Shown here: positions 6,649 to 28,899 of the stretch, one piece after another | How the letters are laid out: each line of letters opens with the position of its first letter | How positions within the stretch are numbered: position 1 is the first letter of the stretch | DNA from: an uncultured Mycoplasmatota bacterium | GTDB lineage: Bacteria > Bacillota_I > Bacilli_A > RF39 > UBA660 | NCBI GenBank assembly: GCA_900552335.1 | Contig: URZL01000010.1 | Coordinates: forward strand, 1-28,899 | Length of the DNA stretch: 28,899 nucleotides | Direction: 5' to 3' | The notes under the pieces: model-generated | Seen by the model: only the letters and a program-made list of their open reading frames with translations | Told to the model about the DNA's origin: nothing | The model's database searches: none | Program-made: the position numbers and the translations under genes

Positions 6649-6672
6649 AAATAGCGTTTTTTTGCGCTATTT
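6649..6672 (-). terminator. Terminator of the WG-repeat gene
   Basis: Perfect 8-bp stem AAATAGCG (6649-6656) with CGCTATTT (6665-6672), loop of eight, T-rich on the minus-strand exit side. The stop codon TAG (6669-6667) lies in the stem. Confidence 0.75.
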
Positions 6673-7701
6673 CTTAGTATAATGTTTTTCATCTTTAGAT
6701 GTTTCTAGTAGTTTTTGTTCATATTCTTCTCTTTCCTCTTTTGTTTCAAAAGAGAATACTTGACCATCTACAATTAAGTCAAAATATCTTTTTACGTCAT
6801 AAGATGTTGATATTTTTCTAGATGCTTCTTTTACTTTTTCAATGTCTACTGTACTAATATCTTTGAATGATATTTTTTCCCAATTTTTTCTTGTTGTTGC
6901 TAAAATTTCACCTATAGTTGCATATCTAGCATGTTCTTTTTCAAAAATTAGGTATACGCCTTCACCTAAATATCTCATTTTATCCGAATTAGAAAATACT
7001 ATTTTACCATTTCTATCAATTAAAATATATTCGTTTCTTTCTTTAACAAGTGCATAACCTTCATGAAAGTTTCCAATAAAATCGTATTCACAGGGAATTA
7101 CTTTTTCACCTTTTTGATTAATGTAGCCCCATTTGTCAGAAAAATGTGTACGAGCTAATTCTTCACAAAAGTCATCAATATAATCATATTTAGGTGATAA
7201 AATTTCTGTTCCATTTTTGTTAATAAGCCCATATTTTCCATTCAATCTGACCCAAGCTAATCCTTCATGAAAATTTCCAACGCCGTCATATTTACATGGA
7301 GTAATTTCTTCTCCTTGTTGATTAATATAACCCCATTTATCACCCAAATCAACCTTAGCTAATCCTTCATGAAAATTTCCACAGCATTTATACATAAAAG
7401 GTATAATTTGTTTTCCATCTTGGTTAAAATAACCCCATTTTCCACCTGAAAATACAGCTGCCAAACCCTCACGAAAGTGTCTAACTATACTATATTTAAC
7501 GGGTATAACAATTTCAAAATTTCGATTAATATAACCATATCGTCTTTCCCCAAATTTTTCTATAACAGCTAGACCATCATGAAATTCAACGTCTTCCCTA
7601 TCTATCCATCCTAGAAAATCCTTTACAAAATTTTGAGGTAGTTCACCTATATTTTCATAGTTTCTTACAATTTTTATTCCTTCATCTTTTAAAATTTCCA
7701 T
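6667..7701 (-). CDS. WG-repeat (KWG Leptospira-type) protein
   Basis: 344 residues with about five to six tandem WG repeats between residues 40 and 236. Each carries the pattern F-x-E-G-L-A, then KWGYIN(Q/R)-x-G, then (I/V)-x-P-x-x-Y; examples are NFHEGLAKV, DKWGYINQQG and NFHEGLAWV. WG repeats are thought to be protein-binding folds of largely unknown role. There is no signal peptide and no membrane segment, so it is probably cytoplasmic. The C-terminal ~100 residues are non-repetitive and charged, with no domain I recognise. Several repeats also share nearly identical DNA (the bases coding NFHEG), pointing to fairly recent internal duplication. It stands alone between two terminators, so it is its own transcription unit; proximity to the two-component genes may be coincidental. 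Confidence 0.85.
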   Translation of the reverse strand: MEILKDEGIKIVRNYENIGELPQNFVKDFLGWIDREDVEFHDGLAVIEKFGERRYGYINRNFEIVIPVKYSIVRHFREGLAAVFSGGKWGYFNQDGKQIIPFMYKCCGNFHEGLAKVDLGDKWGYINQQGEEITPCKYDGVGNFHEGLAWVRLNGKYGLINKNGTEILSPKYDYIDDFCEELARTHFSDKWGYINQKGEKVIPCEYDFIGNFHEGYALVKERNEYILIDRNGKIVFSNSDKMRYLGEGVYLIFEKEHARYATIGEILATTRKNWEKISFKDISTVDIEKVKEASRKISTSYDVKRYFDLIVDGQVFSFETKEEREEYEQKLLETSKDEKHYTKK

Positions 7702-27048: not shown

Positions 27049-27531
27049 TTATTTTTCATAATTTAATTTTTTTTGTAATAGTTTTACAGCTTGCTGATCT
27101 TCTTCACTAACATAGGGAGTTTTTAATTTTAAAAATTGTTCCATATCTAATAAATAAGGAATTCTATTTTCTGTTATTAAAGTTTGGTTATTCCAAATTT
27201 TATCGATTTGTTCGGAAATAAATTCTACATGATAAGCATAGTATTTCTGAATAATTTCTCTACTAACATCATTTAGTTTATTATTTTTTTCTTTAAAAAT
27301 TTTATAATAAAAAGTCATAGTTAATAATTCTATTTTTTTGTTTGGATCTATTAAAAATAATGTTTGTAAAAAATCTGTTGAATATCCTTTACTACTAATA
27401 ATATTTTTTGGTAATTTTATATATCTTCCATCATCCAAAACTAAAATTTTTTGTTCTTGGTTAAATGCAATTATCTTTTCTTTCCATATTGTCTCTTCTA
27501 TAGGATATATTATTTTACTTCTTGTTTTCAT
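27049..27531 (-). CDS. Unknown 160-residue protein in the valS operon
   Basis: Soluble protein without signal peptide or membrane helix. The N-terminal half looks like a small beta-rich unit (KIIAFNQEQKILVLDDGRYIKLP, about 18-40), the rest helical (SREIIQKYYAYHVEFISEQIDKIW, about 89-112; SEEDQQAVKLLQKKLNYEK at the end). I do not recognise a family. Its ATG overlaps the stop of the HD-hydrolase gene (ATGA), and valS begins 12 bases after its stop, so it is locked between them and shares T-box control. A role in amino-acid or tRNA physiology is inference only. Confidence 0.7.
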   Translation of the reverse strand: MKTRSKIIYPIEETIWKEKIIAFNQEQKILVLDDGRYIKLPKNIISSKGYSTDFLQTLFLIDPNKKIELLTMTFYYKIFKEKNNKLNDVSREIIQKYYAYHVEFISEQIDKIWNNQTLITENRIPYLLDMEQFLKLKTPYVSEEDQQAVKLLQKKLNYEK

Positions 27532-28259
27532 ATAGTGTTTATTCTTTCTTCTATTTTCTTTAACAAAAAATTTTTTAATTTTTTAGTTTCTTCGGTTTGA
27601 CCATATATTTCTAATAAATCTATCTTTTTTTGTATGATATTCTTTTCTTTTAGATAAGAATAAGAATATTTAAAATTAAAATCATTAATCCATGATAGCA
27701 TTCTCAAAATAGAGTCTGTATCATTTGAAACCTCTTCATTTTTGCAAAGTTTATTTTGATAAATAGCGAATAATAAATTTTCTTTTAGAATAATTTCTTT
27801 CTCTCCTATTTGATTTCCTTGTTCTGTCATAATATCTAGTTTATCTGCATCCCTTACAATTTTTATAAATAATAGAGTTCTATCATTCATTTCCGGTAAT
27901 TCTAATTTATTATGATATTGAACACTATTCATTACAATGCTTGCTATTTCTGCATCATTGGTAAACTCATTGATAAAATTATTTTCGTTTAAAATATGAG
28001 CACCTTCATCACCATGATCAAAAGAATCAGTGTCTCGATATGTCTCATAACAAGTCCATTGTTTAAAACGGGCAATATCATGTAATAAACCACAAAGAGC
28101 CGCAATAGAAATATCTTTTTCACTTAAATGTAAAGAAACAGCTATTTCTTTACAAAATTCCATAACACGAAAACTATGATGATACTTTCTCATTATATTT
28201 TTATTTCTTAAATCATATTTTTTTGCATATTGATTAAACAATTGTATTTCTTTTTTCAT
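27528..28259 (-). CDS. HD-domain phosphohydrolase
   Basis: 243 residues. The HD superfamily metal ligands are all visible: His28 in YHHSFRV, His60-Asp61 in CGLLHDIARF, a further His82 in FDHGDEGAHIL, and Asp138 in KIVRDADKLDIM. This spacing is typical of metal-dependent phosphohydrolases acting on nucleotides or similar phosphate esters; the substrate cannot be read. The last ~40 residues are a lysine-rich helix. Start ATG has AGAGAGG about six bases upstream. It is the first gene behind the valine T-box, ahead of an unknown gene and valS, so it is predicted to be induced during valine limitation. A link to (p)ppGpp breakdown would be attractive, but the sequence lacks the RelA/SpoT-specific hydrolase motifs. 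Confidence 0.88.
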   Translation of the reverse strand: MKKEIQLFNQYAKKYDLRNKNIMRKYHHSFRVMEFCKEIAVSLHLSEKDISIAALCGLLHDIARFKQWTCYETYRDTDSFDHGDEGAHILNENNFINEFTNDAEIASIVMNSVQYHNKLELPEMNDRTLLFIKIVRDADKLDIMTEQGNQIGEKEIILKENLLFAIYQNKLCKNEEVSNDTDSILRMLSWINDFNFKYSYSYLKEKNIIQKKIDLLEIYGQTEETKKLKNFLLKKIEERINTI

Positions 28260-28591: not shown

Positions 28592-28899
28592 TTAAAATGC
28601 TAAAACAACACGGAAACCGCGGGCGCCGTTAGCAGCGCCGTTAGCACGAGCAAAGTAGAACACGCCGGCACCCGAACCAATGAAGAAAGTGCCCCCACGA
28701 GTGACCCAAGGGCGAGTAGCATCAGGGAAGTGCGCGTAATCACTAAACCATAACCCTCTTTCTCCACTAGAACTATTTGTTTTTGAAATAGCTACTTCTT
28801 TTGAAGCATCTCCTAGTTTACTATTTGTATATTTATACCATGTCTCATCTCCTAAAGTGGTACTATTTGGTACATACAAATCATAATATCTGGTATCCG
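28592..28899 (-). CDS. DGR-type variable protein, C-terminal part (5' end beyond window)
   Basis: The reading frame is open to the window edge, so this is the last ~102 codons of a longer gene, not a complete 95-residue protein (the only internal start would be TTG). Upstream codons are AT-rich like the rest of the window and give YYDLYVPNSTTLGD, KLGDASKEV and GLWFSDY. The last part is a C-type-lectin/FGE-sulfatase-like ending: PWVTRGG, then GSGAGVFYF, then GFRVVLAF at the stop. This is the sequence signature of proteins diversified by DGRs, often surface-exposed and in gut Bacillota sometimes fused to a prepilin N-terminus. The variable-region features are given in a separate entry. The N-terminal anchor cannot be seen. 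Confidence 0.85.
   Translation of the reverse strand, partial: DTRYYDLYVPNSTTLGDETWYKYTNSKLGDASKEVAISKTNSSSGERGLWFSDYAHFPDATRPWVTRGGTFFIGSGAGVFYFARANGAANGARGFRVVLAF
28595..28738 (-). other. Candidate DGR variable region (VR)
   Basis: In these 48 codons only 14 of 144 coding-strand bases are adenine, and about 58% of bases in 28601-28740 are G or C, against a strongly AT-rich background. Codons at the expected variable positions end in C or T: GCT, GCC, TTC, TAC, ACT, ATT, AAC. That is what adenine mutagenesis of AAY codons in a template repeat produces (first two bases changed, third kept). Invariant codons between them (GGC, GGT, TTC, CGT) keep the RGG...GVF.F...NG...GFRVVL frame. The segment next to the stop would be the initiation-of-mutagenic-homing end. 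No template repeat, Avd or reverse transcriptase gene is visible in the window. Confidence 0.8.

Follow-up and report, generated by a model that had tools for sequence, protein, structure and literature searches.

Does the 3' end of a gene cut by a contig edge point to a diversity-generating retroelement (DGR) that itself lies out of view? The question is raised by a stretch of 28,899 nucleotides from an uncultured Mycoplasmatota bacterium (assembly GCA_900552335.1, contig URZL01000010.1; hereafter the window), at whose end an open reading frame (ORF), the edge ORF, terminates in a GC-rich, adenine-poor island. A previous reading of the letters alone (the sequence-only reading) had taken this island for the target of a DGR. 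We consider it very likely that the island is the variable region (VR) of a DGR target gene, because of its column pattern, its NNY codon repertoire, the way in which variation stays within it, the existence of ORFs carrying the predicted template, and the predicted fold, which together support the earlier interpretation; a homing-site hairpin was looked for and not found.

Composition and variation of the island

The upstream part of the edge ORF is ordinary AT-rich coding DNA, and its composition shifts toward the stop codon. The in-frame 144-base stretch poorest in adenine, starting at codon 51, holds 14 A, exactly as counted in the sequence-only reading, and the one richest in GC, starting at codon 47, holds 84 G+C. 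In comparison, 7769 in-frame 144-base windows from 24 other genes have an A minimum of 32 (mean 57.5) and a G+C maximum of 62. The maximum-likelihood GC change point falls at codon 54 (about 28738), adjacent to the previously proposed start at 28740, and a change point calculated from A content only falls earlier, at codon 48. Upstream of codon 54, C occupies the third position in 2 of 53 codons, and from codon 54 on in 19 of 48. The island, spanning codon 54 to the stop, thus occupies the 3' end of the gene, as the VR of a DGR target does.

A protein search with the edge protein returned 12 relatives, and a second, length-padded search returned 107. Close relatives have a scaffold in common (RGG.F, GAGVF and GFRVVL), interleaved with 13 hypervariable columns that each hold 8 to 13 different residues across 28 aligned rows. 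In the edge ORF these columns correspond to codons 56, 62, 66, 70, 72, 73, 81, 83, 86, 88, 90, 92 and 93. Variable-looking codons had been described as almost all NNY, and the hypervariable codons are NNY at 13/13 positions, against 48.2% of codons in other genes (probability about 7.5e-5, assuming independence); the terminal GFRVVL singled out earlier belongs to the shared scaffold, the protein ending in GFRVVLAF.

The residues found at the hypervariable columns are similarly restricted. K, E, Q, M and W make up 2/297 residues there and 34/275 at the upstream columns that vary most, likewise 13 in number, counted in 23 of the 120 aligned sequences (P0001-P0013, P0015-P0022, P0027 and P0028; the nearly fixed P0023-P0026 and the more distant P0029-P0121 were omitted). 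AAY is the most frequent adenine codon in known templates, according to PMC6328139, and a template with such codons, mutated at its adenines, would produce the observed repertoire. Furthermore, differences within close pairs sit mainly at the 13 columns with the scaffold kept, so that the anticipated limitation of variation to set codons holds when relatives are compared. P0002 and P0015, for example, agree at 52/53 upstream, 33/35 scaffold and 0/13 variable positions, and the window's own protein and P0002 agree at 51/53, 32/35 and 3/13, respectively.

Candidate templates and the weight of the evidence

We searched with a predicted template protein in which Asn was written at every variable column, and obtained six proteins, of which three had turned up in the earlier searches and the other three (P0122, P0123 and P0124) are short ORFs not found before. 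Asn occupies 12/13 variable sites in P0122, 10/12 in P0123 and 10/12 in P0124, compared with 48/297 in targets (Fisher's exact test, template ORFs vs targets, 8.7e-18, relatedness ignored). All three ORFs extend beyond the point at which the targets stop. P0122 has no target sequence before the repeat, and P0123 and P0124 begin within the repeat, as judged by eye. The 20 C-terminal residues after the repeat are common to P0122 and P0123, which lie on two different contigs, and this tail resembles what a conserved template flank would be.

When P0122 is taken as the template for the window DNA, a comparison made at the residue level and with another assembly, 31 codons encode the same residue and 16 of the 17 differing codons are reachable through changes at template adenines only, so that 47/48 VR codons are accounted for. 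P0123 and P0124 explain 38/41 and 39/41 codons, respectively. Controls in which the register was slid reached at most 22/46 codons, and other targets used as false templates accounted for 124/405 differing codons.

Several observations weigh against a DGR target. The template query is itself biased toward Asn-rich matches, the template ORFs are known as protein letters only, which leaves codon choice free in the fit, and P0122-P0124 stem from assemblies other than that of the window's organism. Codon 59 (GAT) is incompatible with P0122. In addition, the VR of P0023-P0026 is nearly identical in 4/4 sequences, and thus not all members of the family hypervary. No reverse transcriptase (RT) was found among the 25 window ORFs scanned (of 34 listed; the remainder comprises eight ORFs on the plus strand and an additional start of the edge ORF), and no template repeat of the VR was found within the window, which agrees with the previous statement that the retroelement is out of view. 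As a positive control, the repeat method recovered, in one AT-rich gut-phage record, a 96-base repeat with 24 mismatches that all fall at template A; it found no such A-mismatch repeat in a second record. Finally, no perfect stem of at least 5 bp with a loop of 3-8 bases occurs within 102 bases past the stop codon, and this is the one test that the DGR-target reading fails; the same check recovers the 8-bp stem of the Bordetella phage BPP-1, and hairpins of 7-10 bp follow the VR in phage DGRs (PMC3240598).

The variation is confined to set columns, its repertoire is narrow, and the window DNA fits a relative's candidate template at the residue level. Present activity, reverse transcription and retrohoming we infer from the way known DGRs work: an RT that errs at adenines would copy a template RNA whose variable sites are mostly AAY codons, and the resulting cDNA would be substituted for the 3' end of the gene, altering 13 codons and sparing the scaffold. 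DGR rewriting would give this bacterial surface protein an antibody-like variable face.

Location of the machinery and competing explanations

In the classical DGR cassette the VR is followed directly by template and RT, an order that remote targets need not have. This order is absent here, where a T-box, an HD-domain gene and valS lie downstream instead, and enzyme and template would be located outside the window. On balance, we favor machinery that acts in trans from elsewhere in the genome. As the main competitor, a rearranged cassette may place template and RT directly upstream, just past the window edge; the upstream side does lie beyond the window, and a cassette pattern in which the VR has moved comes preferentially from Firmicutes (PMC6642488), but the gene is cut at the window edge, which offers no direct evidence for or against, and we regard this arrangement as plausible though somewhat doubtful. 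It is unlikely that the gene is a relic target, in which a DGR wrote the VR once, the enzyme was lost or no longer homes, and diversity now arises by exchange among paralogs. The missing hairpin, the lack of an RT in view and the nearly fixed branch P0023-P0026 would suit such a history, but near-identical upstream parts go with few or no shared variable residues (3/13 for P0001/P0002, 0/13 for P0002/P0015) and a kept scaffold, and a template ORF still explains nearly every codon. It is very improbable that no DGR is involved and that the island is just the tail of a lectin evolving fast in the usual manner, or GC-rich DNA of foreign origin. Even if unusual composition alone could arise by transfer, the NNY-type repertoire, the confinement of variation to set columns and the fit to predicted template ORFs speak against this reading, which was rejected.

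The closest known systems differ from the edge gene in several respects. In BPP-1, template and RT lie <2 kb from the VR of mtd, the VR is followed by an 8-bp hairpin and the target is a phage tail protein, whereas neither template nor RT is seen at the edge gene, its VR has no such hairpin and its product is a cellular protein. TaqVP, the variable protein of the Thermus aquaticus DGR (PDB 5vf4), has 9 variable residues, compared with 13 hypervariable columns here, and, unlike the edge gene, it is followed by avd, template and RT in one prophage cassette. A further parallel is provided by the remote variable proteins of cyanobacteria (PMC7517822) and Thiohalocapsa PB-PSB1 (PMC10907252), in which targets lie away from the RT and are matched to a template elsewhere, although in those cases the template is seen in the same genome and the candidate templates of the edge gene come only from other assemblies.

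The locus looks like a further remote-type DGR target, of a kind already described in those organisms, in a new lineage. We found no report of DGRs in this lineage (Tenericutes, Mycoplasma) and no literature joining DGRs and prepilins, both weak negatives as most subscription literature lay outside the search. A large metagenome survey of DGRs required the RT to lie <1 kb from the repeat and states that remote targets go undetected (PMC8144416). The edge gene appears to be such a target recognized from its VR alone, and the template-fit codon test works with no RT in view. If the machinery does act in trans, members of a little-studied gut lineage carry a hypervariable protein on their surface, and one can ask concretely whether it binds host mucus, a neighboring cell or a phage. 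It is tempting to speculate, just short of an even judgment, that gut Bacilli/Mycoplasmatota with AT-rich genomes maintain a unit of template and RT which acts in trans on a dispersed set of chromosomal lectins anchored to membrane or pilus, and so obtain an antibody-like surface repertoire of roughly 15^13 variants for each gene.

Fold, family and neighborhood

The edge protein is very probably a cell-anchored, lectin-like surface protein with a C-type lectin fold of the FGE subtype. This fold, usual though not universal in the VR domains of DGR targets, is seen in the predicted model (family alignment of 60 sequences), in agreement with the lectin/FGE-type ending proposed earlier. The best BFVD matches of the model include phage tail collar proteins, as a shared fold would permit. 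A PDB sequence search returned five chains, all unrelated (best E 0.87), and PHROGs matched phrog_2889, of unknown function, at E 0.012 for the edge protein and 0.00031 for P0005. In a Pfam scan of six relatives the sole match was N_methyl, in P0007; pilin-like structures have been linked with DUF1566-type targets (PMC6642488).

Scans of IMG/VR gave no relative of the edge protein, the family alignments, the HD neighbor or P0122, although they rely on short conserved patterns that distant relatives may escape, and tblastn gave none in phages or in plasmids. These results suggest a chromosomal family, and phage cargo was rejected for want of a viral relative by sequence, despite the tail collar matches. 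A scan of GTDB genome contigs with six patterns found no relative, nor did a second, weak one that used a single pattern. Three homolog pairs (P0068/P0084, P0061/P0080 and P0029/P0042) are 75-77% identical within the pair and have longest contigs of equal size (27936, 18434 and 6286, respectively), a hint at loci with two adjacent targets.

Features of the window discussed in the text
Feature	Position	Strand	Basis or context
Putative target gene, C-terminal 101 codons	28592-28897	(-)	ORF running open off window end; 12 homologs
Putative VR, codons 54 to stop	28592-28738	(-)	GC change point; P0122 explains 47/48 codons
Stretch with 13 hypervariable NNY codons	28619-28732	(-)	8-13 residues per column, 28 rows
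T-box leader, RF00230	28297-28497	(-)	Downstream of edge gene
HD-domain gene	27528-28259		Preceded by T-box leader
Unknown gene	27049-27531		Between HD-domain gene and valS
MMPL-family protein, 1530 aa	213-4805	(-)	Adjoins two-component system
WG-repeat protein	6667-7701	(-)

The downstream neighbor had been named as the valS T-box promoter; the T-box is indeed present, but valS is only the third gene after it. A GUA triplet in the expected specifier region, read from the alignment, would fit valine. The 28.6 kb downstream of the edge gene also encode RuvA, RuvB, a queuosine gene, EF-Ts and ribosomal S2, among others.
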